From the NCBI RefSeq assembly GCF_002554795.1, contig NZ_PDEQ01000004.1:124001-188000 (forward strand): 64,000 nucleotides of DNA, given 5' to 3'. Source of the DNA: Longibacter salinarum (GTDB lineage Bacteria; Bacteroidota; Rhodothermia; Rhodothermales; Salinibacteraceae). A program made the translations under genes and the position numbers. The notes beneath the pieces were generated by a model, which had not been told where the DNA came from, searched no databases, and was given only the letters and a program-made list of their open reading frames with translations. Positions 3,631 through 35,774 of this stretch are shown one piece after another. Numbering within the stretch: the first letter of the stretch is position 1; the number at the start of each line of letters is the position of its first letter.

Positions 3631-4584
3631 TCACGTCGCTTCATCTGCGCCTTCTCCCGCCGGCTCGAGCAGGAGATTTCTGCCGAAACTTCGGAGGGTG
3701 AAGACGGGGCACGGCGCCGTACGCACAACCTTCTCCGCCACACTTCCAATGACGAAGCGCTTCAGGCCCGTGCGGCCATGCGTCGCCATTACGATAAGGC
3801 CGACGTCGTTCTCATCAACGTAGTCGACGATATCTCGGGCAGCATAGCCCGTTGTGGTCACCGTCTCCACGTCGAGAACACGGGGCTGAACCCGCTCGGC
3901 CAGTTCGTCGAGCGCCTCTCGCGCGCGGGCCTCCACATTCGGCAACTCCGGCGTGAGCGGGTCGACGCCGTATACCGTCGGGTACGCCGCCTGCTCGACG
4001 ACGTGCATGAGCGTTAGACGCGCATCGTATGTTGCAGCCAGCTCCGCCGCATGATCGGCCACAATGGTCGACTGTTCGGACAGGTCAACCGGTGCAAGCA
4101 CGTGATCCACGTACGGCCCTGGCGTCGGCTCGTCTCCGGCAAGCACTGTAAAGACCGGGCAGGGAGCCTCGCGCACGACCTCCTCGGACACGCTGCCGCT
4201 GAGCAATCGGTCGAACCCGCGCCGACCGTGCGTTCCCATCACGATCAAGTCCACCTCGTCTTCCTTCGCCTGCTCGATAATGGCATGTGCGGGCGAGACA
4301 GACTCGATCTGGCCGTAGGTGACTCGCACGCGGCCCTGCTCATCCGCGGGTGTTTTGACGTCAACATCCTCTGCTGGCATGTAAAACATTCCCGGCCGTC
4401 CGTCGGCTTCCTCCAGCGGAAGATATTCCATCGGGTTCATTTCATGCGCCTCCTGCGGCGTCACGACATTAAAGACGTAAACCTCGGCGTCATACCGCAT
4501 GGCAAGATGCGCGGCGTGCGAAAATGCGTCCTCTGCAACCGCCGAGAAGTCTGTCGGGAAGAGAATGCGATTGATATCAAGCAT
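3631..4584 (-). CDS. Tandem universal stress protein (two UspA domains)
   Basis: A 317-residue protein made of two UspA folds, about residues 1-149 and 157-297. Both carry the ATP-binding signature G-x2-G-x9-GS: GTHGRRGFDRLLSGS (117-131) and ATHGRTGLKRFVIGS (267-281), each followed by PCPVFT. It is thus of the nucleotide-binding class. Such tandem proteins are cytosolic and are commonly induced by starvation or low oxygen. It lies 65 bp downstream of the response-regulator gene on the same strand, so co-transcription is likely, and ends in a clear terminator. A second tandem Usp lies at 8674 on the other strand. The exact stress response is inferred from context only. Confidence 0.93.
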   Translation of the reverse strand: MLDINRILFPTDFSAVAEDAFSHAAHLAMRYDAEVYVFNVVTPQEAHEMNPMEYLPLEEADGRPGMFYMPAEDVDVKTPADEQGRVRVTYGQIESVSPAHAIIEQAKEDEVDLIVMGTHGRRGFDRLLSGSVSEEVVREAPCPVFTVLAGDEPTPGPYVDHVLAPVDLSEQSTIVADHAAELAATYDARLTLMHVVEQAAYPTVYGVDPLTPELPNVEARAREALDELAERVQPRVLDVETVTTTGYAARDIVDYVDENDVGLIVMATHGRTGLKRFVIGSVAEKVVRTAPCPVFTLRSFGRNLLLEPAGEGADEAT

Positions 4585-4649: not shown

Positions 4650-5303
4650 TCAGGTGGCGCTTTCACTTTCCACCCACTGTACCGCGTGCTTCATAAGTTC
4701 AGTCGCAGATTCGAGGTTGAGCTTCTTCTTGATGCGTGCACGATACGACTCCACGGTCTTGACGGAGAGGTGGAGCCGCTCGGCGATATCGCGCGTGGAT
4801 GAGCCGTGCCCGGTCAACTCGAACACCTCCAACTCGCGATCGCTCAGCACTTCCAGTGGCGACTGGGTGATTCGTTCACGCCCCCCCGTCGCCATGCTCA
4901 TCAGAAGGCGCTCGTTGATTTCGTCGCTTACGTAAATGCCGCCGCGCATAACCTGACGGACGGCTCTGACGATCACATCCCCGGCCTCCAGCTTCATGAT
5001 ATAGCCGCGCGCCCCCGCCCGAATCGCCCGCTCGGCATAGAGCGTCTCGTCATGGCGCGACACCACGAGAATCTTAATGTCAGGCTTGCGGGCCTGAAGG
5101 TGTTTTACGAGCTCCATCCCGCTCATGCCAGGCAGAGAGATGTCGATGATCGCCAGATCGGGCTCCAGTTCATCGATGTCTTCTAACGCCTCCTCGGCGC
5201 TACTCATCTGACCAGACACGTTGAACTCAGCCTCGGCATCGAGAGCAAGAGCCAACCCCTTTCGCATCAGCGGATGGTCGTCAACGATTATTATCTCAGT
5301 CAT
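4650..5303 (-). CDS. NarL/FixJ (LuxR-type) response regulator
   Basis: A 217-residue two-domain regulator. The receiver domain (1-120) has the acidic pair D8/D9 (IIIVDDHP), the phospho-acceptor D54 (LAIIDISLPGMSG), the switch serine in VVSRHD and the lysine in GYIMKLEAG. The C-terminal LuxR/GerE helix-turn-helix is LSDRELEVFELTGHGSS through SVKTVESYRARIKKKLNL, about 148-205. The ATG at 5303 is chosen because it gives a canonical receiver start (MTEIIIVDDH); the frame stays open further upstream but without family similarity. Its likely partner is the HisKA_3 kinase at 5971-7989, two genes upstream on the same strand. Two candidate autoregulatory sites lie at 5413-5450. The surrounding oxidase and stress genes are its probable targets (inference). 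Confidence 0.93.
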   Translation of the reverse strand: MTEIIIVDDHPLMRKGLALALDAEAEFNVSGQMSSAEEALEDIDELEPDLAIIDISLPGMSGMELVKHLQARKPDIKILVVSRHDETLYAERAIRAGARGYIMKLEAGDVIVRAVRQVMRGGIYVSDEINERLLMSMATGGRERITQSPLEVLSDRELEVFELTGHGSSTRDIAERLHLSVKTVESYRARIKKKLNLESATELMKHAVQWVESESAT

Positions 5304-5568: not shown

Positions 5569-5946
5569 TCACACCAGACAATCCATTCCGTCTAACGCCA
5601 TGTGAATCAGCAGTCCGAGCCCTGCCAGGTGAGCAATGCGAGCGAGTCGAGACCGCTCCCAAAGTGGGGTCTCGTACTCATGGAGAAATGGCCCGATAAA
5701 GAGAATGACATATGCCGCAATCGCCGGGACCGAGTGCAATGGGTGAAAACCGATCGAGCACCGGTTGGGATCGTAGATCGGATCGGCGAGCAGATGATCC
5801 ACGTCAACGACCATGGTTAAGACCATGGTGAGCACCGCCTCGCGCCAGTGCGCCCGATAGAAAACGAACGCGACGACCAGCGGAACGGCGAAGTGAAGGA
5901 CGAGGTGAAGCATCCGAAGGGGGCAATTCAAGATGTCCGTTAACAT
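5569..5946 (-). CDS. DUF6122-like small integral membrane protein
   Basis: A 125-residue protein with about four hydrophobic segments: LHLVLHFAVPLVVAFVF, REAVLTMVLTMVVD, VPAIAAYVILFIGPFL and LAGLGLLIHMALDG. It carries a conserved polar signature, VDVDHLLADPIYDPNRC followed by SIGFHPLHS. This matches my recollection of the DUF6122 family, small membrane proteins frequent in Bacteroidota and reminiscent of membrane metal-dependent hydrolases (the D-x-DH and HPLH motifs could bind metal). No function is established. It sits between the sensor kinase (24 bp away) and the response regulator, probably in one transcript, so a link to that signalling pair is possible. Confidence 0.8.
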   Translation of the reverse strand: MLTDILNCPLRMLHLVLHFAVPLVVAFVFYRAHWREAVLTMVLTMVVDVDHLLADPIYDPNRCSIGFHPLHSVPAIAAYVILFIGPFLHEYETPLWERSRLARIAHLAGLGLLIHMALDGMDCLV

Positions 5947-5970: not shown

Positions 5971-7989
5971 TTAATGCGCAACCGGACAGCCGCCGCCCCC
6001 ACTTCGACCGTTGCTACTGCTGGAGCCAGGATTCGGGCGGTCCGTCACATCCGAAGAGCCATCCACGCGTTGACCGTTCGTCGAATTATTGGCTCCCGGA
6101 GAAGCCGTGCCGGGCAACGTGCACGTCACCGTTGTCCCTCCGTCCGGAGTACTGCTAATCTCCAGCGTGCCCCCGATGATTCGAGCCCGGTAATTCATAA
6201 TGTGAACGCCCATACCCGGGCCATCGATGTTTTCAGGGGCGAATCCCACGCCGTCGTCCTGAATACGCAGACGGATCTGCTCCGACCCCGATGCAAAGGC
6301 AATTTTGATGCGCTCGGCATCCCCGTGACGCACGGCGTTGCTGACAGCCTCCTGGGCAATACGATACATGTGAGTCGCCGCCGTGGCATTGTGCACCAAT
6401 CCAGTGCCCACCTCGTCGAACGCGCAATCGACACCGAACAGACGTTCCGCGTTATCACTGAGTCGTTGAAGCGCCTTCGATAAACCGTTTGCTTCGAGAT
6501 CAACCGGGGTCAGCCCGCGGGCGAGATCACGAGCATACTGATCCGCCTCTTTCATAAGATCCGTAATCTCTTCCGCCTCCTCAACGAGCGTACTACCCTC
6601 CTTCTTCAGCTGCCGCGAGAGGTTCTGACTGAGCAGGCCAATGCCAGTAAGCATCTGACCGAGACCGTCATGCAGATCTTGACCGATCCGCCGCCGCTCC
6701 TGCTCTGAGATATTGAGAATCTCTTTCTCCAGACGCCGCCGTTCGCTGATGTCGCGCACGATGCCGGTAAATGCGTGGACGGACTGCGTGTGCACCTCGC
6801 TCACCGCGAGATCCATCGGGAACGTCGTTCCATCTTTCCGGCGACCGGTGACCTCTCGGCCAATTCCAATAATCCGTTCGCGACCGGTCTCATGATAACT
6901 GCGCATGTACCCGTCATGCTCATCCCGATACGGCGGTGGCATCAGGATCTTGACGTTTTTCCCGATAACCTCGCTGGCGGAATAACCGAAAATATCTTCC
7001 GCAGCCGTATTGAATGACTGAATGATGCCTGCGGAGTTAATCGTGATGATCCCGTCGACCGTCGTCTCTAGAATCGACGTTGCGCGAGCCTCACTCTCAC
7101 GGAGAGCTCGCTCGGTCCGCGTCCGTTCAACCGCTCCGGCAAGCACGTTGGAGACGGACTGCAGGAAGTAAACATCTTCCTGACTGAACACACGCTGGTC
7201 CGTGCTATGGGCCCCGAGAACGCCGTAGGCCTCCGGCGTACTGGCAATCACGACACTGATCCCGCTAACGATGCCGTGATCTTTCAACAGGTCCGGCGTT
7301 TCGAATCGCGTTTCCGCTTCGAGGTCGTCGACGACGATCGGCGTATCAGACTTCAACGTATACCCTCCCTGCGATTCGGCACCGTCGGTGACCGTTGCAT
7401 GACCGATCGCACCATCCGTCCATCCCATCCCCGCCTTCAGGCGCAACTGCCCCTTTTCCGGCTCGTGTTCAAGAACCTTACATGTCTCCACGTCGAGCGT
7501 GCGAGCAACCGCGCGCGCGGCCTGCGCTATGAGCACCTCGATCTCGGTGCCCGCAAGAGCACGACGACCGATCTCGGCTACGACCGCCTGGTGCGGCGAG
7601 GGCTGAGACTCGGGGGCTTCTCGGACGAATGAAGACATGTACTGGTCGAGCAAGCCGAGACGCGTGCTCAGTCGGTCCGGATCGAATCCGGACAAGATCA
7701 CGTCGGTGGCGCCAGCCTCGAACGCAAGGTGGATCTTCTCCACAGATGGGTCCATCCCGACGATCGCAACCTGAACGTCGGGCCGATGCCTCAACACCTC
7801 CTGGGCCCATTCCAGGCCCGACTCGTCAGGATGAATCAGCAGACATGTGTCGAACGTGCGTTCATCTACAGAGGGATGAGCCGGCGCCTCCGACGGGTCT
7901 ATCTGTTCCACCTCGTGCCCGCCATCGGCAAGCACCCGCTCAATCATCGTTCGACTCTGCGAAGGAGGCCCGTAAACGAGAGTTTTCAT
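5971..7989 (-). CDS. Sensor histidine kinase with receiver-like, GAF and FixL-like PAS domains
   Basis: A 672-residue soluble kinase starting at ATG 7989 (MKTLVYGPPS). Order: a receiver-like domain (1-120, degenerate), GAF (about 130-290), PAS (about 300-420), HisKA_3 with phospho-acceptor H440 (QERRRIGQDLHDGLGQM), and HATPase (540-626, N box NAVRHG at 551, G boxes DDGVGF and GMGVHIMNYRAR). No membrane segment is visible. The PAS domain is strikingly FixL-like: H358 in EHDGYM and R378 in IIGIGREVTGRRKDGTTFP are 20 residues apart, as are the haem-ligand His200 and the distal Arg220 of Bradyrhizobium FixL. A haem-based oxygen sensor is therefore plausible, though many PAS domains share this text without proven haem. 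The NarL/FixJ-type regulator nearby is the expected partner. The tail is Ser/Gly-rich and ends GGGGCPVAH. Confidence 0.93.
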   Translation of the reverse strand: MKTLVYGPPSQSRTMIERVLADGGHEVEQIDPSEAPAHPSVDERTFDTCLLIHPDESGLEWAQEVLRHRPDVQVAIVGMDPSVEKIHLAFEAGATDVILSGFDPDRLSTRLGLLDQYMSSFVREAPESQPSPHQAVVAEIGRRALAGTEIEVLIAQAARAVARTLDVETCKVLEHEPEKGQLRLKAGMGWTDGAIGHATVTDGAESQGGYTLKSDTPIVVDDLEAETRFETPDLLKDHGIVSGISVVIASTPEAYGVLGAHSTDQRVFSQEDVYFLQSVSNVLAGAVERTRTERALRESEARATSILETTVDGIITINSAGIIQSFNTAAEDIFGYSASEVIGKNVKILMPPPYRDEHDGYMRSYHETGRERIIGIGREVTGRRKDGTTFPMDLAVSEVHTQSVHAFTGIVRDISERRRLEKEILNISEQERRRIGQDLHDGLGQMLTGIGLLSQNLSRQLKKEGSTLVEEAEEITDLMKEADQYARDLARGLTPVDLEANGLSKALQRLSDNAERLFGVDCAFDEVGTGLVHNATAATHMYRIAQEAVSNAVRHGDAERIKIAFASGSEQIRLRIQDDGVGFAPENIDGPGMGVHIMNYRARIIGGTLEISSTPDGGTTVTCTLPGTASPGANNSTNGQRVDGSSDVTDRPNPGSSSSNGRSGGGGCPVAH

Positions 7990-8673
7990 ACGGATCTCGG
8001 CACCTATGCTTCGGCAACTATAACGACTGTTGGATCCGGCCATACGGCATGCATGACCGCAGGACGGATGGGCGTGAATTCAACACTGCGCACACCCGGT
8101 CACGTCACGTGCTAACTTGATTGGCGCAATGTCTCTAGCTATCCGGAAAAACAGGGACCTCCGTGCAGTCGGCCCCGGATGCATATTCATCTGCCAATCG
8201 GGTTGTTATAATACAAAATAGATCCCTCCTCTTCAGAGAATTTCCGTTGGGATCGCACCAATAGAGTACCGGGCCACCTTGAGACATTCGGATGCGAAGG
8301 GATAGGAAGCCCAACAGGTCAGATGTGCCGGACAAAACAGCTCGATCCGGCCGTCTATCACGCCCTCATAGCGCGCTTGGATTACATGGTATGAGGCGGC
8401 CATATCATTGTGCACTGGAAGGATGGTACCTGCGGCCCTGTAGGGGTTTCCCCTACGTCGACCAACGATATCTCTCCACGGAGACCCCTGTGGTGCTGCT
8501 GTCATGTGTGCTACCATCGATTTTCGTCATTGAAGGCGGACCGATGAGTGTTCCACCGGGCGCCGCACCTTCTCACCCCGCGCTATGCCCGGAGCGTCTG
8601 ATTCCGCAATCGTCCGCGGATAAGGGCGGAAGACATCGATCCTCGCGGGGATTCAACCGACCGATGTGGCCAT
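7990..8673. other. 684-bp divergent intergenic region
   Basis: This separates the minus-strand sensor kinase from the plus-strand stress protein. It has no frame with coding character. It contains a TATAAT hexamer at 8207-8212, without a convincing -35 partner, and the palindrome at 8440-8456. Nothing else was recognised. Confidence 0.5.
8440..8456. promoter_or_regulatory. 17-bp perfect palindrome GTAGGGG-TTT-CCCCTAC
   Basis: A perfect 7-bp inverted repeat with a 3-nt centre, 226 bp upstream (centre to start codon) of the tandem stress-protein gene. It is the best copy of the motif also found upstream of ccoN, ccoG and the response regulator. NarL/DosR-type regulators bind GC-rich inverted repeats of comparable size. 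Assignment to the local regulator is inference. Confidence 0.5.
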
Positions 8674-9690
8674 ATGCTTCACGCAAACAGCATTCTTTGT
8701 CCGGTGCATCCCGGCGCCGACACCCACCCGGCCCTGCAGCAGGCACTTTCGTTTGCCGAAACATGCCGCGCCGCGTTGCATGTCGTGCCGCTACCAGGAG
8801 CACCGGCTGCCCCCCCAGAAGGATGTGCAGCATCCCTACATAACCGGATCCTGGATATCGTTGCGTCAGCTACGAGCGCGTCTCCCGTCCCCCCGCAATC
8901 GGTTATCATTGCCTTCGACGAAGAAGGCCCGTCCGTTGCAGACGTGCTGCAGTACGTATCCGATGAAGGAATCGACTTTGTCATTCTTGATACGCCCACG
9001 GATCGGGGCCCGATTCCGCCCCTGGCCAGCGAACCGACACGTAAGTTCATCACGGACCTGAACGTACCGGTCTTCGTCACCAGCCATTGGGTGATGACGT
9101 GTGATACGCCCGGTGCGGACCACAGCACGCCCCGGCGACGCATTCTCGTGCCGACCGACTTTTCGGAGAACTCGGTGTCTGCTCTTCGTCATGCATTTGC
9201 CTTAGCCGCGGAATTTGACGCGGAGATTGACCTGCTTCATGTGATGGACCGTCCGCAATACGTGGCTCTTAACGATACGGATATGCTCTCGCTGAGTGAT
9301 GCGACACTTCCTGAGCGAAAGGCCCGCCGGCGCGCGGAAAACCTGATTCCGGACAGCCCACTACATCCGACGGTTAACATTCACATTCGGCACGGGGATG
9401 CGGCCGACCAGATCGGCCAATTCGCGACCAAAATGGACAGTGACCTACTGGTTATGTCGACCCACGGGACGATCAGCCGGAAGCAACACCCGCTGGGTCA
9501 CGTCGTCGAGCGCGTGCTCCGTCGCGTTGCCCGCCCGGTCTTCCTTGCCCGGGCGTTCGGCATCTCCCTCGTGGACGAATCCTGGACCCCTCATGAAGGC
9601 GCGAACGATGGCGCCAGCGGCTCGGCTCCCGATCTCTCCGCACAACCCTCCGGCTGGCTCGACACGGAACGTAAAACGAGCCACCGCTAA
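8674..9690 (+). CDS. Tandem universal stress protein with degenerate N-terminal domain
   Basis: A 338-residue protein. The C-terminal UspA domain (about 153-296) starts RRRILVPTDFSENSVSALRH and carries a variant nucleotide motif, STHGTISRKQHPLGH (262-276), in which the final G-S pair is G-H. The N-terminal domain (1-140) keeps the fold pattern (SILCPVHPGAD, FVILDTPTDR, LNVPVFVTS) but lacks the glycine loop, so it probably does not bind ATP. A disordered tail of about 40 residues follows. It stands alone on the plus strand, 347 bp before ccoN and downstream of the palindrome at 8440. This suggests it is co-regulated with the oxidase genes. Confidence 0.9.
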   Translation: MLHANSILCPVHPGADTHPALQQALSFAETCRAALHVVPLPGAPAAPPEGCAASLHNRILDIVASATSASPVPPQSVIIAFDEEGPSVADVLQYVSDEGIDFVILDTPTDRGPIPPLASEPTRKFITDLNVPVFVTSHWVMTCDTPGADHSTPRRRILVPTDFSENSVSALRHAFALAAEFDAEIDLLHVMDRPQYVALNDTDMLSLSDATLPERKARRRAENLIPDSPLHPTVNIHIRHGDAADQIGQFATKMDSDLLVMSTHGTISRKQHPLGHVVERVLRRVARPVFLARAFGISLVDESWTPHEGANDGASGSAPDLSAQPSGWLDTERKTSHR

Positions 9691-9818: not shown

Positions 9819-9835
9819 GTGGGGATCCGCCCCAC
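9819..9835. promoter_or_regulatory. Candidate regulator palindrome upstream of ccoN
   Basis: GTGGGGATCCGCCCCAC lies 211 bp (centre) upstream of the ccoN start. The dyad extends imperfectly outward to about 9814-9842. It matches the 8440 and 13808 motifs in length and layout. The rest of the 347-bp gap 9691-10037 holds one long-looped inverted repeat (AAAGTGCGT at 9735, ACGCACTTT at 9783) and no gene. Confidence 0.5.
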
Positions 9836-10037: not shown

Positions 10038-11837
10038 ATGGCTCAAGCCAGCACCGCTCCCGCCGTTTCTGACTCGCGATCGGCGGCAAGTGAGCGCTCT
10101 AACATCGACATTTTCAGCTATGACGAAAAGATCGTTCGCTACTTCGTGTACGCGACGGTCTTGTGGGGCTTCATCGGCATGTCTGTCGGGGCCCTGATCG
10201 CGCTACAACTGCCCTGGCCCGCGGCTAATCTCGGCGAATATCTGTCCTTCGGCCGGCTCCGCCCGCTGCACACGAACGCAGTGATCTTCGCGTTTGCGGG
10301 CAATGCCATTTTTGCCGCCATCTACTACTCCACCCAGCGCCTCTGCAAGGCGCGGATGTTTAGTGATTGGATGAGCAAATTTCACTTCTGGGGCTGGCAG
10401 GCGATCATCGTATCGGCCGCGATAACGCTTCCGCTCGGCTACACGACATCGAAGGAATACGCGGAGCTGGAGTGGCCCATCGACATTGCGATTGCTGTCG
10501 TCTGGATCGTATTCGCAATCAACTTCTTCGGCACCCTCTACAAGCGACGTGAGAAGCACCTCTACGTTGCGCTCTGGTTCTACATCGCAACGATTGTGAC
10601 CGTCGCCGTGCTTCACGTGGGCAACAGCCTCGCGCTCCCGGCGTCGATGCTCAAGAGCTACCCGATCTACGCCGGTGTGCAGGATGCTCTAGTTCAGTGG
10701 TGGTACGGCCACAACGCCGTGGCTTTCTTCCTGACGACGCCCTTCCTCGGCCTGATGTATTACTTCATGCCGAAAGCGGCGGAGCGGCCGGTCTTCAGCT
10801 ATCGTCTTTCGATCGTCCACTTCTGGAGCCTCGTCTTCATCTATATCTGGGCGGGTCCACACCACCTACAGTACACCGCACTTCCCGAATGGGCTGGCAC
10901 ACTGGGCATGCTCTTCAGCGTGATGCTCTGGATGCCGAGTTGGGGGGGTATGATCAACGGGCTGTTCACGCTCCGTGGCGCGTGGCATAAGCTGCGGGAT
11001 AGCGTCGTGCTCAAAATGTTCGTGATCGGCATCACCTTCTACGGCATGTCAACCTTTGAGGGCCCGCTGCTGTCGGTCAAGAGCGTCAACGCGCTCAGTC
11101 ACTACACCGACTGGACCATCGGCCACGTCCACTCGGGCGCCCTGGGATGGAATGGCTTTATGACCTTCGGCATGATCTACTGGCTCCTGCCCCGCCTCTG
11201 GCGCACGGACCTGTGGAGCCAGAAGCTCGCCAACGCCCACTTCTGGACGGGCACGATCGGCATCCTCCTGTACGTCCTGGCGATGTACAACTCGGGCATT
11301 ACGCAGGGCCTGATGTGGCGGGCATTTGACGAAGCCGGAAATCTGATGTATCCGGAGTTTATCGAAACCGTCGTCCAGGTCATTCCAATGTACTGGGTCC
11401 GCCTGATTGGCGGTCTGCTCTACCTCGGCGGCGTCATGATGATGATGGCCAATATGTACATGACCATTCGCTCCGCTCCCGACGACCTTCCGGATCCCAC
11501 ATTCGCCGCCCCGCGCCAGCCGATGAAATACGGCCATGGCGATGGTGCAGGCAACGGCGCCTCGGAGCAGACCCCCGAGCCCGCTCCCGCTCGTGCCCGC
11601 ACCGCCACCGAGTCCGAATCGGTTCCGACCGAGGCGGGAACGCCCGGTACCGAGGCGGAAACGCCCGGTACCGAGGCGGAGACGACCGGAACCAAGAAGG
11701 CTCAGCTGCCCGGCTCGAAAAAGGCGGACGGCCCCGGTTCGAAGAAGGCAGAACTGCCTGGCTCGAAGAAAGCCAACCTACCCGACTCGAAGACGGACGA
11801 CGCCGACGCGGACGAAGACTCCACGGACGAAAGCTGA
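10038..11837 (+). CDS. ccoN: cbb3-type cytochrome c oxidase subunit I (CcoN) with a long acidic repeat tail
   Basis: The catalytic subunit of a C-family haem-copper oxidase, 599 residues with about 12 membrane helices in 30-475. Ligand histidines are readable: H78 (RPLHTNAV, low-spin haem), H225 (WYGHNAVAF) and H275/H276 (AGPHHLQYT) for CuB, and H363/H365 ([13 protein letters not shown]) for the two haems. Y335 in [11 protein letters not shown] lies where C-type enzymes carry the cross-linked tyrosine. After residue 490 there is a hydrophilic extension of about 110 residues, absent from typical CcoN (about 475), rich in E, T, P, K and D. It contains repeats of TEAETPG and PGSKKA types. It opens the ccoNOQP operon and reduces O2 with electrons from cytochrome c. 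Confidence 0.96.
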
Positions 11838-11951
11838 TCCTACCGGATTCGACCCGGTCCCGTGCGCGCTCTGCTGGAGTGTCTACGGGATCGGGCCTTC
11901 CGGGACACGCCCTCTGCCCTCCAACGATCATATACACCTCTCCCTCCTGTC

Positions 11952-12719
11952 ATGGGACGATTCATTAAGAGCAATGGAATGCACCGGACGCTTGAAGGCT
12001 GGCCGCTGGTCTTCACCGTCCTCACGACGCTTGCTATTCTCGTAGGCGGCCTCGTAGAGTTCCTCCCCCTCGTTCTCGTCAACAGCGCGGTCGATCGCAT
12101 CGAAACCGTCGAGCCATGGACCCCTCTGGAACTTGAAGGCCGCGACATCTACATCGCGGAAGGCTGTAATACCTGCCACTCGCAGATGGTGCGCCCCTTC
12201 CGACACGAAATCGAGCGTTACGCTCGGAACGGGGGTGGCTACTCGAAGGCCGGCGAAACGGTGTACGAGCGCCCGTTCCTCTGGGGATCGAAGCGGACCG
12301 GTCCGGATCTGGCGCGTGAAGGCCTGCTCCGCCCACAGGCGCTCTGGCACGTCCGGCACATGGAGGACCCACGCTCCACGAGCAAAGGCTCCATTATGCC
12401 ACCGTACCCGCACCTGCTGGAGAAGGACATCGATTTCGATGGGCTGACAGCGAAGCTTCGTACCCTCAAGCAGCTCGGCACACCATATTCCGAAGAGACG
12501 GTCAAGAACGCTGCGTCTATAGCACGCGAACAGGCGCAGACCATCGCCAAGGAGGTGGAAGAACAGGGCGGCCCCACGGGACTCGAGAATAAGAAGATCA
12601 TGGCGCTCGTGGCGTACCTGCAGAGCCTGGGCACAGACGTCGCCGATCCCGAGGATGACGTCGCTAATGCTGAGTCCGCTTCCGACGACGCGGACGTGAC
12701 CGCCGACGCTTCTCGCTGA
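11952..12719 (+). CDS. ccoO: cbb3 oxidase monohaem cytochrome c subunit (CcoO)
   Basis: A 255-residue protein. One N-terminal helix (about 18-45) anchors it, followed by the single haem c motif GCNTCHSQMVRPFRHE (C72-C75-H76), which is diagnostic for CcoO, and a downstream methionine in GSIMPPYPHL as likely axial ligand. ATG 11952 (MGRFIKSNGMHRTLEGWP) is chosen because it starts at the conserved family N terminus, 114 bp after ccoN. The C-terminal 45 residues are very acidic, which fits a salt-adapted organism. It passes electrons from CcoP or soluble cytochrome c to CcoN. Confidence 0.95.
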   Translation: MGRFIKSNGMHRTLEGWPLVFTVLTTLAILVGGLVEFLPLVLVNSAVDRIETVEPWTPLELEGRDIYIAEGCNTCHSQMVRPFRHEIERYARNGGGYSKAGETVYERPFLWGSKRTGPDLAREGLLRPQALWHVRHMEDPRSTSKGSIMPPYPHLLEKDIDFDGLTAKLRTLKQLGTPYSEETVKNAASIAREQAQTIAKEVEEQGGPTGLENKKIMALVAYLQSLGTDVADPEDDVANAESASDDADVTADASR

Positions 12720-13025: not shown

Positions 13026-13661
13026 ATGCCAAACGATCCAAACACGAACCGTCCCGACCGCTCTAGCTCGGACGATGGCTCCGCTCTCTACGGCCGGACC
13101 CACGACCAGCTCATCCAGGGGCACCGCTACGACGGGATCAAAGAATATGATAACCCTATGCCCGGCTGGTGGGTCTGGCTCTTCTGGGGATCCGTCGTGT
13201 TTAGCGTCATCTATTTCGTCGGCATTACCTGGTTTGACTTCGTCGACACGTACGAGGACGATCTCGCGCAGGGCCAGGAAGCGCTCGCTATGCAACGGGC
13301 TCAGTATGAGGCCGAGAACCCAACGTTTGAAGCCACACCCGCTTCACTCGCTGAGATGATTGGCAACGAAGAACGCATCGCGTCCGGCGAAGAGACGTAT
13401 CAGAGTCTCTGTGCCTCGTGTCACGGCGACAAAGGACAGGGCATTATCGGCCCAAATCTGACCGACAAATATTGGATCCACGGCGGCTCCAACATGGACA
13501 TCTACAACGTTCTAACGGAAGGCGTAACCGACAAAGGCATGCCGGCCTGGGATGCGAGCCTCCGACCGGAAGAGCGCGCCGAACTCGTCGCGTTCATCGA
13601 GTCCATTCAGGGAACCGAACCGGAAGGCGCGAAACCGCCGGAAGGGGACCCTGTGGAGTGA
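13026..13661 (+). CDS. ccoP: cbb3 oxidase CcoP-type subunit with a single haem c
   Basis: A 211-residue protein. The N terminus (GHRYDGIKEYDNPMPGWWVW) is the typical CcoP signature, followed by a helix at about 48-70 and one cytochrome c domain (CASCHG, C129-H133; distal methionine in KGMPAWD). Classic proteobacterial CcoP has two haem c domains in about 300 residues. Here only one exists, so the electron entry chain is one haem shorter. This is not a frame break: the domain ends naturally and is followed by a terminator at 13709. Confidence 0.94.
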   Translation: MPNDPNTNRPDRSSSDDGSALYGRTHDQLIQGHRYDGIKEYDNPMPGWWVWLFWGSVVFSVIYFVGITWFDFVDTYEDDLAQGQEALAMQRAQYEAENPTFEATPASLAEMIGNEERIASGEETYQSLCASCHGDKGQGIIGPNLTDKYWIHGGSNMDIYNVLTEGVTDKGMPAWDASLRPEERAELVAFIESIQGTEPEGAKPPEGDPVE

Positions 13662-13944: not shown

Positions 13945-14039
13945 CACCGGATGACGCCGCCGTCGATTCGTGCATCCGCACTTCTCGGTCCCCCCGACCG
14001 GAGATGCCTACGTATCGCCCTCAAGACTGACCTCACGTG

Positions 14040-15494
14040 ATGGAAGTTCAAGACCGCAACGATCAGCGTCGCAGCAAACGACAGTTCATCCCCGCCGGCG
14101 ACGTTGGCGTGATGGATGCACCGCCCGAAGACATCATGGCGACGCTGAATGCGGATGGAAGTCGAAAATGGCTGTATCCAGAGCTAAACAAGGGGCGGTG
14201 GTACTATTACCGCCTGATCGTTGCCTGGGTACTCGTCGCAATTTTCGTTGCGCTCCCGATCGTTAAGATCAACGGCAAGCCCGCCATCTTCCTGGACGTG
14301 CTCCATCGTGAGTTTACGTTCTTCGGGATGACGTTCTACCCGACGGATACGTTGCTGCTGATGCTCCTTATGATTGGCGTCCTCGTCAGCGTCGTGCTTT
14401 TCACGGCCCTTCTCGGCCGCGTCTGGTGCGGATGGGCCTGCCCTCAGACTGTCTATCTGGAATTTTTCTATCGCCCCGTCGAGCGCCTGTTCGAAGGGAA
14501 AGAGCACGTCCGTAAGCGACGTGACGAAGGCCCGTGGACCTTCGACAAAGTATGGCGCAAAACGGGCAAACACGCCGTCTATCTCATCTTCTCGCTCGCA
14601 CTCGCCCACACGTTCGTCGCGTACTTTGCAGGCTGGAGCAATCTGTTGACCTGGATGCAGGGCTCGCCGACCGATCACTGGGGGTACTTCGTGATGATGG
14701 CCGGCACGACGGGGCTCATCCTGTTCGACTTTGGCTTTTTCCGCGAACAGATGTGCACCATCGCCTGCCCATACGCACGCTTCCAGTCCGTCTTGCTCGA
14801 CCCGGACTCGCTCATCGTTTCGTACGATGAAGAGCGAGGCGAACCGCGTGGCAAAGGGAAAGAACGCTCCGATCTCGGCGACTGCGTCGACTGCTATGCG
14901 TGCGTTCGTACATGCCCGACGGGGATCGACATTCGCGATGGGCTACAGATGGAGTGTCTCCACTGCACACAGTGCATCGATGCCTGCGACGACATTATGG
15001 AAAAAGTGGGCTTCGAACCGGGCTTGATCCGCTACTCTTCCGAACGGGAAGACGAAGGTAAGACCCGGCGCTTCTTCCGCCCACGCACAGTCATCTACAG
15101 CCTCCTGCTCGTCGTCATCGCGTCCATTTTCGCAATCGCCTTCACCACGCGCGGTTCGTACGACGTGAACGTGGCCCGCGCCTCCGGCGACCCCTTTGTC
15201 GTCCTACCTAACGAGGAGGTCGCCAATCGCCTTCGGTTCCGCGTACGAAATCAGTCTCCGAAATCGACGACGTACACGGTCGAAGCCATCGAGCCCGCCG
15301 GCGCGACCGTCAAGATCCTCGGGCGAACCCCGATCTCCGTGCCGGAAGGGGAGATGAAACGGACGGAGGTCTGGATTATCACGCAACCAGACGTGATCCA
15401 GGGTGGCACACAGACAGCCACGCTGAAGGTTGAGTTCGAAAATGGCACGACGAAGGAGATGAAATTTCCTCTCCTCGGTCCGTCCTCAAATTAA
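14040..15494 (+). CDS. ccoG: cbb3 oxidase assembly ferredoxin-like protein CcoG
   Basis: A 484-residue membrane-bound iron-sulphur protein of the CcoG/RdxA/FixG family, involved in copper handling during cbb3 oxidase maturation. Membrane spans lie near 60-80, 105-128, 180-200, 220-237 and 355-377. Cysteine motifs: CGWACPQTVYLEF, CTIACPYARFQ, and a 2[4Fe-4S] ferredoxin pair (CVDCYACVRTCPTGIDIR and CLHCTQCIDACD). A C-terminal Ig-like FixG domain (about 380-484) follows. The ATG at 14040 is preceded in frame by a GTG (14037). ccoI, ccoH and ccoS, often adjacent in other genomes, are not in this window. Confidence 0.95.
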   Translation: MEVQDRNDQRRSKRQFIPAGDVGVMDAPPEDIMATLNADGSRKWLYPELNKGRWYYYRLIVAWVLVAIFVALPIVKINGKPAIFLDVLHREFTFFGMTFYPTDTLLLMLLMIGVLVSVVLFTALLGRVWCGWACPQTVYLEFFYRPVERLFEGKEHVRKRRDEGPWTFDKVWRKTGKHAVYLIFSLALAHTFVAYFAGWSNLLTWMQGSPTDHWGYFVMMAGTTGLILFDFGFFREQMCTIACPYARFQSVLLDPDSLIVSYDEERGEPRGKGKERSDLGDCVDCYACVRTCPTGIDIRDGLQMECLHCTQCIDACDDIMEKVGFEPGLIRYSSEREDEGKTRRFFRPRTVIYSLLLVVIASIFAIAFTTRGSYDVNVARASGDPFVVLPNEEVANRLRFRVRNQSPKSTTYTVEAIEPAGATVKILGRTPISVPEGEMKRTEVWIITQPDVIQGGTQTATLKVEFENGTTKEMKFPLLGPSSN

Positions 15495-16438: not shown

Positions 16439-16795
16439 AGAGCTATACGAAAGATAACGGTTTGTTCGAGCCGACTGTGGCCTCGTAATTGCGAGACCTG
16501 TTGCCGTCTGGACAACACAGACACCGGCTGAGCTTGCATGAACCCAAGCTCCCACCCGCGTTCCAGACGGTTTTCAACCGGAACGTAACAAGTAGTTCTG
16601 TTGATTTCGCCGAGCGAATGTGGCTTCAAACATGCACATAGCTTAAATTCGGCTTTTACCTCGCATAGAGAATGGACGACATCCTGATACGTTCGGGCGT
16701 GTTCGCACCACGCGGCATACGAACCGATCTGTCCGGCAGTGTCTCATTCGTCGCCCTGCCAGATTTGCCTGTATCCTGCAGAGAACGCGTCGATA
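16439..16795. other. 357-bp divergent intergenic region
   Basis: This lies between the NmrA-like gene (minus) and the sensor kinase (plus) and must contain both promoters. No clear motif, repeat or small gene was recognised. An in-frame GTG at 16739 could extend the kinase by 19 residues. Confidence 0.4.
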
Positions 16796-18490
16796 ATGAG
16801 TGACGCAAACGAACCGAGCGTGTGGGACGACCCGCCCGCTGGCGCCGACTTTACGATTCGCCTTCCCGAGATCCCGCGCCAGGTCGACCTGGACGCCGTG
16901 GATCCGGCATCTGTGGATGCGGCGCTTCGCTCGGTTGTTCATGACAGCCTGCTACCGGTGACAACCGGCCTGAGTGTGCTGTTCATGTTCAACATGGTGC
17001 TGCATCTGATTTTTGTATCAATGCCTTATGCGGCATACATCTCTTTCCTCGCCGCGACGTCAGCCGTCGGGGCCCTGCTGCTCCGGCTCTTTCTACGGAC
17101 CATGCCGTCCGATCATCCGCGCATGCATGCAGTCAGCGGACTTGTTGTCGGCGTCGTACTGGGCCACACCTTATTTACTCAGATTATCACAGGAAGCATC
17201 CCACTCACGCAGCTGACGTTGTTGCTCGTGGGAGCTGGCGTCATCATCATGTCCCGACGATGGTTCGCCGGATTCCTGGGACTTACTCTGGTCCTCTGGC
17301 TCACGTTGTCCCTGATCTCATTTCCGTTGGCCGATCTGGTCATTCCAGGGATTAGCGTCGGTGCAGCCGCGGCCTTTTCAACCATGATACACGTTGTCCG
17401 GCGGCGGACGAACGTACGGGCGGAGGAGCTCCGGCTCGTAAGCGAAAGCCAGAAAGAAGCGCTCCGGGAGGCTCTGGCGGCTGAGGAACGTCAGCGCGAG
17501 TCCCTGGCCGAGTCAGAGCAAACCCTTCGGGACACGATGAGCGACCTGCAGTCCGCGAAGTCGACCCTTGAGCGACGGGAAGAAGAACTATCGGAGATGG
17601 TCACGGCGTTGACCGAGGCGAAAAAGCAGGCGGAAGAATCCAGCCGGATCAAGTCCGCGATGCTAGCCAACATGAGTCATGAAGTTCGAACTCCACTCAC
17701 GGCCGTTATCGGCTTTTCTGAAATCCTCGCAGAAGAGACGTCCGGAGAAAGCCAGCACTTCGCGTCCCTTATCATGAAGAGTAGCCGTCGCCTGATGGAG
17801 ACGCTGGATTCAGTCCTGAAACTCTCCCGTCTTGAAGCCGGCAAGGTTCAGCTCAACCGCCAATCACTGGATCTCGTCGAAGAGGCAGAAGCGATGATTC
17901 TCGAGCAGTCGAACCGGGCCGACGCTGCCGGAGTGAAACTCGACCTAAGCACCTACGCCGACTCCTGCACCAGTACGCTGGATCACGGCGCCCTTCAGCG
18001 CATCCTGCGAAATCTCGTGGGCAACGCAATCAAGTTTACCGACGAAGGCGGCCATGTGATCATCCGCATTGGACACAGCGCCCACCCGCCCACGGACGCG
18101 GAGGCGGTTCGTAGAGGAGCCCAAATTCATGTCCTCGACGATCCACCGGAACGAGCTACGCATGCCGTCCTCCAGGTTGAAGACACCGGAATCGGTATGT
18201 CCGCTTCATTTCAGGAGAAAATGTTTGAAGCATTCCACCAAGAGAGCCAGGGGTTGAGCCGGAGTCACGAAGGCAGCGGTCTAGGGCTGTCGATCACGCA
18301 ACGCCTGATCCGCTTGATGCAAGGAGAGATTTACGTCGAGAGCGAGAAAGGCGAAGGCACCACCTTTACCGTCTATTTTCCACTGGATCGCTTCCGGTCA
18401 AATGGCCGCTCGACGACAAACGGGATTTCGCAAACCGATTCCTCGGCCAGCGATAGCCCGTCGTCGGAACGAAGTGAACCCGTCACGTGA
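16796..18490 (+). CDS. Membrane-bound sensor histidine kinase
   Basis: A 564-residue protein. An N-terminal domain of about six membrane helices (residues 50-205) is followed by a coiled coil (about 215-285, rich in E, R and Q), HisKA (ANMSHEVRTPLTAVIGFSEIL, phospho-acceptor H295) and HATPase_c with N box (NLVGNAIKFTDEGG), G1 (EDTGIGM), F and G2 (GSGLGLSITQRLI). A Ser/Thr-rich tail ends it. No receiver domain and no adjacent regulator gene exist, so this is an orphan kinase of the 7TM/MASE-like sort with unknown signal. ATG 16796 (MSDANEPSVW) was preferred over the upstream GTG. Confidence 0.92.
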   Translation: MSDANEPSVWDDPPAGADFTIRLPEIPRQVDLDAVDPASVDAALRSVVHDSLLPVTTGLSVLFMFNMVLHLIFVSMPYAAYISFLAATSAVGALLLRLFLRTMPSDHPRMHAVSGLVVGVVLGHTLFTQIITGSIPLTQLTLLLVGAGVIIMSRRWFAGFLGLTLVLWLTLSLISFPLADLVIPGISVGAAAAFSTMIHVVRRRTNVRAEELRLVSESQKEALREALAAEERQRESLAESEQTLRDTMSDLQSAKSTLERREEELSEMVTALTEAKKQAEESSRIKSAMLANMSHEVRTPLTAVIGFSEILAEETSGESQHFASLIMKSSRRLMETLDSVLKLSRLEAGKVQLNRQSLDLVEEAEAMILEQSNRADAAGVKLDLSTYADSCTSTLDHGALQRILRNLVGNAIKFTDEGGHVIIRIGHSAHPPTDAEAVRRGAQIHVLDDPPERATHAVLQVEDTGIGMSASFQEKMFEAFHQESQGLSRSHEGSGLGLSITQRLIRLMQGEIYVESEKGEGTTFTVYFPLDRFRSNGRSTTNGISQTDSSASDSPSSERSEPVT

Positions 18491-34379: not shown

Positions 34380-35774
34380 GGTAGCATGTCGGTCCCGTGA
34401 GAAGTGCCCTGTTCGGCAGGGAGGCGACCGGTGCAAAACAAAACGCGACATCGCCGCTTTCTGTCGGACGAGAGACAACCACGTCATCAACCGACAACCG
34501 TACGACGATGCCGCAGATATCCCTACAGCACGAGGGCTTTGATGTTCAGATCGAGATGACCGAGGAGGTCCCCGCCGATGTGTATGCGCTGGCCGACCGA
34601 CTCGTCGACCTGGCTCGACAGCTGGTTGGCTCGGTCGTTCGGGCGCAACTCGCCGCTCGCCTGCACGACGAACTGGGTCCGCGGGGGGCGGCAGGCAACG
34701 GCTTCGATTCCGATGAGACAGCCCCATCCGATCCAGTCGGTTCCTCCGATCCAGGCGGGTCCTCCGATCCAGGCGGTTCCTCCGACCGAGCGGCGCAGTG
34801 TCCGGAGTGCGGATCTGGAGCTGCGTACCGGAAGGGATACCGGTCCCGAACGGTGGCGGTGGCCCGTCTTGGGGCCGTCGAGGTCGAGCGCCCGTACCTG
34901 GAGTGCCGCAGCTGCGGTCGCTCGTATACGCCGTACACGGCTGGGCTCCCGAAGCGGCGACGCTATGCGCAGCAGGCCATGCGGCGCCCCATCGAGGCGA
35001 CCCTGGAGACGAGCTACCGGCGCGGCGCCGAGGCCGCTCAGCACGGCACCTGCGTGGCCGATGCCACGCGCATCCCCGCCCGAGAAGCAGGCGCCCAGCA
35101 CAGCCTGTCGATCGCGCATGCGGTAAAGCCGGCCCCACCCGGCAGCGCTGGCAACGGCACCCGCCCGGCGCTTGATCGGTGGCCCATTGGGGCCCGGGTT
35201 GGGTCGGAGACCCGCCTCCGCGAAGCGCTGCGCGACGTGCCGATCTCCACGCTCGTGATCGACGGAAAAATGGACATGCTTGGGATCGCCGAGAAGACCG
35301 GCCGCTGCCGCTGGCACCTGCCGCGTTCGGTCCGGTACCTGCTCTACAACGACGCGGTGCGGGGCGAGCACAATGAGCACCTCACCCGCGAGGTGCGCCA
35401 GCTCGCTCATGCCGACTATGCCAATCCGGTCGCTGCCCACGCCACCCTCACGCGCTGGGCGGCCGTTCGACGACGGGTGGCTCCGCAGGCCGCCGGCCAC
35501 GTTGAGCGGGCCGCCCCCCAGATGGCGGTCTACGCCGAGCCGCCCTCCTCCACCGGGGCCTCGTTCGAGGTCGAATCAACGGCTCCAGCCGAGCGGGAAA
35601 TGCGCGAACTGAACCGCCGGTTCGAAAACGGAGGCCAGTGGACCCGCTCGGGTGCCGAACATCTGCTGCAGTGGCACCAAATCTACCGGCACCATCCGGA
35701 CCGGTGGGCCGAGTGGTTCCCCGCATCTGAGCCGGATTGATCCTCCCTTCGTCTCACAGTGTTGACATGCTACC
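34380..35774 (+). mobile_element. Insertion sequence, 1395 bp, with terminal inverted repeats and 8-bp target duplication
   Basis: The ends are GGTAGCATGTC (34380-34390) and GACATGCTACC (35764-35774), an 11-bp perfect inverted repeat that extends with mismatches through a shared GTGAGA to about 25 bp. GAACTCTG flanks it directly on both sides (34372-34379 and 35775-35782). It carries one transposase gene. Size, about 25-bp ends and an 8-bp duplication fit what I recall of the ISH6 family; this needs a search. Apparently intact. Confidence 0.9.
34508..35740 (+). CDS. Transposase with zinc ribbon (ISH6/ISKra4-like)
   Basis: A 410-residue protein. After an N-terminal helical region and a Ser/Pro/Gly linker (SDPGGSS repeats, 74-93), a zinc ribbon has C98/C101 (CPECG) and C133/C136 (CRSCG). 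The DDE-type core is suggested by D185 (CVADATRIPAR), D252 (LVIDGKMDMLG followed by RCRWHLPRSVRYLLY) and E384 (MRELNRRFENGG then GAEHLL). This order is usual for transposases of the ISH6/ISKra4/ISLre2 kind. ATG 34508 (MPQISLQHEG) was preferred over upstream in-frame starts. The frame is unbroken, so the element may be active. Confidence 0.82.
   Translation: MPQISLQHEGFDVQIEMTEEVPADVYALADRLVDLARQLVGSVVRAQLAARLHDELGPRGAAGNGFDSDETAPSDPVGSSDPGGSSDPGGSSDRAAQCPECGSGAAYRKGYRSRTVAVARLGAVEVERPYLECRSCGRSYTPYTAGLPKRRRYAQQAMRRPIEATLETSYRRGAEAAQHGTCVADATRIPAREAGAQHSLSIAHAVKPAPPGSAGNGTRPALDRWPIGARVGSETRLREALRDVPISTLVIDGKMDMLGIAEKTGRCRWHLPRSVRYLLYNDAVRGEHNEHLTREVRQLAHADYANPVAAHATLTRWAAVRRRVAPQAAGHVERAAPQMAVYAEPPSSTGASFEVESTAPAEREMRELNRRFENGGQWTRSGAEHLLQWHQIYRHHPDRWAEWFPASEPD

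Follow-up and report, generated by a model that had tools for sequence, protein, structure and literature searches.

A predicted haem-PAS oxygen-sensing two-component system and its associated promoter palindrome in Longibacter salinarum and its relatives

The DNA analysed here (the window) is a stretch of 64,000 nucleotides from the genome of Longibacter salinarum. On its reverse strand lies a gene for a sensor histidine kinase (5971–7989), whose translation from the ATG at 7989 gives a protein of 672 amino acids; a further ATG at 8043 in the same open reading frame would extend the protein to 690 amino acids. The kinase consists of a degenerate receiver domain (residues ~1–115), a GAF domain (150–287), a haem-type PAS domain (305–414, encoded on the reverse strand at 6748–7077), a HisKA_3 domain (431–498) that contains H440, and an HATPase domain (538–626). 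Pfam models detect GAF, PAS, HisKA_3 (PF07730), and HATPase_c, and the N-terminal receiver match stays below the Pfam cut-off (26.1 versus 30.2 bits). The phosphoacceptor aspartate of the receiver-like region is absent by eye, and the region is poorly conserved where present. No transmembrane stretch was found in the kinase, its highest 19-residue Kyte–Doolittle mean being 1.44. A preliminary description of this DNA had called the kinase soluble, with an added GAF domain and a degenerate receiver, and these results bear it out on each point. Both the receiver-like part and the GAF domain are absent in several relatives; they are optional extras of the kinase, found in some relatives only.

Also on the reverse strand is a gene for a NarL/DevR-type response regulator (4650–5303, with the start MTEI... 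at 5303), which has a predicted phosphoacceptor aspartate, D54, and a LuxR-type helix-turn-helix domain. In this genus alone, a gene for a DUF6122 protein (5569–5946, reverse strand) separates the kinase gene from that of the regulator; a tandem-Usp protein is encoded downstream of the regulator (3631–4584, reverse strand), and a Usp gene is divergent from the kinase (8674–9690, forward strand); all three were assigned by domain matches and synteny. Beyond the divergent Usp gene, the forward strand carries ccoN, for subunit I of a cbb3 oxidase (10038–11837), and ccoO (11862–12719), both assigned by family models, followed by ccoP (13026–13661; its 100.1 bits fall short of the ccoP equivalog cut-off) and ccoG (rdxA/fixG; 14037–15494). 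Usp and cbb3 genes thus lie near the kinase, as had been claimed. Across 46 loci, the regulator adjoins the kinase in almost all relatives, Usp genes are nearby in most, and a cbb3 operon lies within 10 kb of the kinase in ~13, upstream in some loci and downstream in others.

Three further features of the window were recorded. CcoN has a C-terminal extension of ~110 residues past the oxidase domain that is rich in PGSKKA/GTEAET-like repeats. A second histidine kinase, membrane-bound judging by its hydrophobic N-terminal half, is encoded near the cbb3 operon (16739–18490, forward strand), and an open reading frame with CxxC motifs (34397–35740) is transposase-like (UPF0236/IS-like by eye).

Among solved structures, the PAS domain of the kinase best matches FixL (1.5e-35) and then DosP, and the matches also include the FG214 haem PAS (10jx; PMC13060918). 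A model of the domain made from nine sequences (pLDDT 82) aligns with the FixL haem domain over 114 residues without gaps (Z 18.9, ~50 per cent identity), model residues 14–127 corresponding to residues 154–267 of BjFixL. Because this alignment is gapless, H358 equates with FixL H200 and R378 with R220, which upholds the claim that the two residues keep the His200/Arg220 spacing of FixL; similarly, I373 corresponds to I215, L394 to L236, and V396 to I238. The position of FixL R206 is taken by S364, and signal coupling may therefore differ. The region around the domain (residues 299–425) contains no cysteines in the translation. When the best-matching kinase was taken from each of the 46 loci of the order, H358, R378, and L394 were invariant, with almost no variation at I373 and V396; the conservation of the His and Arg over these loci is more than chance. 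We infer that the PAS domain carries haem, with H358 ligating the iron and R378 on the side where O2 binds. At two loci (L072, 4062–4454, and L076, 11448–11840), the kinase genes also encode a second, upstream PAS domain of the same family that lacks both His and Arg.

How specific this signature is to FixL is a separate question. The same pair, His77 and Arg97, occurs in Escherichia coli DosP. In a wider alignment set that included the Rhodothermia copies, 77 of 95 PAS stretches have the His and Arg. The PAS-kinase core also has matches at 1e-20 in 113 of the 150 genomes sampled from another phylum around an alphaproteobacterium, many of these matches being to the PAS domain alone (45–57 per cent identity). 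A published survey places FixL and DosP in one PAS cluster (cluster 3), in which more than 9,700 members, ~60 per cent of the cluster, bear the haem His, and ~40 per cent of the proteins lack it (PMC10468136). The 20-residue spacing is therefore family-wide and is ruled out as a FixL-specific mark; common across a large PAS family, the signature marks a haem-PAS protein and not a FixL. Within the class, some kinase orthologues have the haem His replaced by N (L109), D (L110), Y (L111), or a gap (L112), and two of these four still have R at the Arg position. Such proteins offer natural controls, or loss-of-haem variants, for the family.

Outside the PAS domain, the resemblance to FixL ends. The NCBIfam FixL model (NF041777) scores 149 bits against a cut-off of 850 and covers residues 280–421 only. 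The best-scoring models for the kinase half are MctS, UhpB, LiaS, and NarQ, and VraS, DesK, and DosT are among its relatives of solved structure. The closest solved relative of the regulator is mycobacterial DevR (9.5e-31, versus 7e-14 for FixJ), and against the FixJ model the regulator reaches 85.7 bits where the cut-off is 255. The regulator that the preliminary description placed beside the kinase is therefore there, but "FixJ-type" is a loose name for what is a NarL/DevR-type protein. With the FixL model limited to the PAS domain, a kinase of the HisKA_3 kind, and a DevR-like regulator, we have a homologous sensor domain on a different transmitter. A PAS tree of 66 rows puts the Rhodothermia rows together and the FixL rows on a separate branch (100/98 support), the deeper order of the tree being uncertain because of the few columns. 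Judged from these sequences, the PAS domain of the kinase is homologous to that of FixL through a common bacterial haem-PAS family, yet it falls outside the FixL clade.

These results bear on the possibility that the kinase is a true FixL orthologue, with the rhizobial FixLJ system having reached this lineage by transfer and acting, as in rhizobia, through a FixK-type regulator. The ~50 per cent identity of the PAS domains would suit it, as would the strikingly similar gene layout in Sinorhizobium meliloti, where usp is divergent from fixL-fixJ-fixT and is followed by a helix-turn-helix gene (probably fixK) and then ccoN. The HisKA_3 kinase, the regulator's greater closeness to DevR, and the separate, well-supported FixL branch contradict it.

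Orthologues of the kinase occur throughout the order, and two further families of the class have them in some of their members; none was found elsewhere in the phylum among 198 genomes drawn from Bacteroidota. The label "Bacteroidota-type" given to the kinase hence does not hold in general; it belongs to its own order and class. True ccoN is present in 24 genomes, all 24 of which have the kinase, and the kinase is present without ccoN in 21 (the sampled species being related and not independent, and several genomes incomplete). That the kinase persists in these 21 genomes indicates that cbb3 is not a constant target.

A 17-bp palindrome, GTRGGG-N5-CCCYAC, recurs in ccoN promoters, outside the coordinates of the kinase gene. 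The window has two exact copies, both predicted operators of the regulator: GTAGGGGTTTCCCCTAC (8440–8456), in the divergent promoter region 218 bp upstream of usp1 and 451 bp upstream of the kinase gene, and GTGGGGATCCGCCCCAC (9819–9835), 203 bp before ccoN. The former site was outside the promoter set from which the consensus was derived. In the 4.4-Mb genome, there are six exact copies versus 0 for a reversed control; the remaining four are located upstream of hemA, upstream of a Usp gene in another usp cluster, upstream of a Tll0287-like gene, and between a cytochrome c–nosZ pair and rrf2. The 46 loci (821 kb) contain 17 exact palindromes versus 0–4 for shuffled half-sites, and 11 of the 17 fall inside the 2.3 per cent of sequence that makes up usp or ccoN promoters (p ~1e-14, with species that are not independent). 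Every one of the 13 kinase-linked ccoN promoters has the palindrome within two mismatches, and 12 have it within one, a count that is partly circular, since ccoN promoters were the source of the consensus. Of the 11 genomes with ccoN unlinked to the kinase, 10 have the palindrome before ccoN within two mismatches, against a chance expectation of ~0.07 per promoter (estimated from shuffles in the window).

In the sampled relatives, exact sites lie at hemA in a sister species and in another family (hence at hemA in three genomes), at usp in the sister species, at Cu-ATPase genes in a third family (two genomes), and at an Acg-family oxidoreductase gene in a fourth; several others are within open reading frames or beside genes without a clear theme. 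An Acg-family gene of L. salinarum is itself accompanied by a one-mismatch palindrome. Genome-wide, one-mismatch palindromes are mostly background (32 versus 30 for the control), and for this reason the analysis relies solely on exact sites and on those in the promoters that were tested. The shuffled half-sites GTGRGG, RTGGGG, and GTGGRG are also frequent in promoters because a single mismatch lets them catch the same sites. Several one-mismatch palindromes, GTGGGGATAGACCC, occur in a stretch that resembles a repeat array, CRISPR-like by eye (L188; G000 contig 10, 109.6–111.0 kb), and are for that reason probably not regulator sites.

The palindrome might instead belong to a different regulator that shares these targets, with the kinase-regulator pair controlling something else. 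Further HisKA_3 kinases are encoded in the genome (one at L180), and some other NarL-type regulator might recognise this palindrome. Three observations make this quite unlikely. Among 60 genomes, the kinase-bearing ones have 105 exact sites versus 48 for the control and the others 2 versus 12 (p = 1e-4), so that only genomes with the kinase exceed the control. The palindrome is present at the kinase/usp promoter even in loci without cbb3 genes. Two distant members of the class (G134 and G155) have a single exact copy each, and in both it lies no more than 1 kb from the genes of the kinase and regulator. What the genomes show directly is the palindrome itself, where it is placed, and that it occurs together with the kinase.

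The promoters also bear on the idea of a transferred FixLJ system. The FNR/FixK box TTGA[CT]-N4-[AG]TCAA, the one box pattern searched, is absent from the 13 ccoN promoters, in which the palindrome sits directly at ccoN, and three rhizobial fix loci have no good copy of the palindrome (one match with two mismatches, in S. meliloti). We consider FixL orthology very improbable and reject it. The suggestion that evolution gave the Longibacter kinase "the same wiring" that rhizobial FixLJ has is likewise wrong in detail, given the HisKA_3 kinase, the DevR/NarL-like regulator, the position of the PAS domain outside the FixL clade, and the palindrome directly before ccoN in promoters that show no box of the searched FNR/FixK pattern.

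As for what is sensed, the FixL-like PAS domain might respond to another ligand (NO, CO, redox, or other) or work as a haem sensor, with respiration genes still under control. NO and CO are also known ligands of haem-PAS proteins, the predicted targets nosZ/rrf2 would suit NO or N-oxide sensing, and the kinase is kept in the class-level orthologues without the His, one of which (G134) keeps the palindrome. We nevertheless regard this as unlikely: R378, at FixL's bound-O2 position, is invariant in the main kinase of the 46 order loci, and cbb3, hemA, and Cu-ATPase targets suit low O2 best.

We therefore favour O2 as the signal. The locus probably encodes a soluble haem-based O2-sensing two-component system, in which a FixL/DosP-family PAS domain and a HisKA_3 kinase would work with a DevR-like regulator acting at the palindrome. 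Of the preliminary O2-sensor reading, the FixLJ wiring has fallen away; what remains is a predicted haem-PAS O2 sensor in control of a cbb3-type microoxic response, and conservation, synteny, and the palindrome shared by the promoters support it well. We infer the sensor chemistry, the sign of the response, and DNA binding by the regulator from the protein families. When O2 leaves the haem, inhibition of the HisKA_3 kinase (of the NarX/DosT kind) would be relieved. The kinase would then autophosphorylate on H440 and, as in related families, pass the phosphate to D54 of the adjacent DevR-like regulator, which in its phosphorylated form is expected to bind GTRGGG-N5-CCCYAC. This would activate the genes for the cbb3 oxidase and Usp proteins, hemA, and nosZ and, in relatives, also the Acg-type oxidoreductase and Cu-ATPase genes.

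The proposed system combines features of several known ones. Like FixL–FixJ of S. meliloti and Bradyrhizobium, it has a PAS domain with the same haem-ligand and O2-contact residues, adjacent kinase and regulator genes, and usp and cbb3 genes nearby; unlike FixL–FixJ, its kinase is HisKA_3 and not FixL-type HisKA, its regulator is nearer DevR, its PAS is off the FixL branch, and its palindrome lies directly at ccoN, with no FixK/FNR box seen. DosS/DosT sense O2 with a haem GAF, and Usp and Acg-family oxidoreductase genes are hallmarks of the DosR regulon. The Longibacter pair resembles this mycobacterial system (DosS/DosT–DosR, or DevRS) in its HisKA_3-type kinase, in having DevR as the regulator's closest solved relative, and in predicted targets that include Usp and Acg-family oxidoreductase genes. 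It differs in that O2 is probably sensed by a FixL-type haem PAS instead of a haem GAF (the Longibacter kinase has a GAF domain, which several relatives do without) and in the predicted targets cbb3, hemA, and nosZ; the spacing of the DosR palindrome also differs from that of GTRGGG-N5-CCCYAC.

In staphylococci, NreB is a kinase of the HisKA_3 kind and NreC a regulator of the NarL kind. In NreB–NreC, an O2-sensing kinase with a PAS domain acts with a regulator whose binding site is a GC-rich palindrome (PMC8139620, PMC5694512), but the PAS of NreB holds a 4Fe-4S cluster, whereas that of Longibacter has no cysteine. E. coli DosP shares the haem-PAS family (cluster 3; PMC10468136), the helix F His, and the Arg 20 residues on, but its output is a c-di-GMP phosphodiesterase and not a kinase. 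In Myxococcus, NmpRSTU has a haem-based sensor kinase and controls cbb3 and hemN genes (PMC11841059), but with a globin-coupled sensor and an NtrC-like regulator.

Taken together, the comparisons point to a probable arrangement of a FixL-type head, a DosRS-type body, and a mixed DosR/FixK-like regulon, with haem and O2 binding and the regulon being predictions. A FixL-type PAS on DosRS-type parts, with a palindrome of its own, would reach a similar regulon through a different assembly of parts. We see about even chances that the system is an ancient microoxic master switch of the Salinibacter/Rhodothermus lineage, formed by the joining of a FixL-type haem PAS to a DosRS-type kinase and regulator, and that through its own palindrome it directly runs both DosR-type (Usp, Acg) and FixK/FNR-type (cbb3, hemA, Cu-ATPase, nosZ) targets with no FNR/FixK layer.

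The system of this halophilic relative of Salinibacter is found across the order and part of the class. The literature searched held no described FixL-like system in Salinibacter or Bacteroidota, and on the same literature O2 sensing in this bacterial class appears undescribed. The locus yields a candidate sensor, its partner, a DNA palindrome, and a target list together. It also presents a case in which a haem sensor domain would have been recombined with another kind of transmitter, with a predicted regulon that resembles those of both FixLJ and DosRS.
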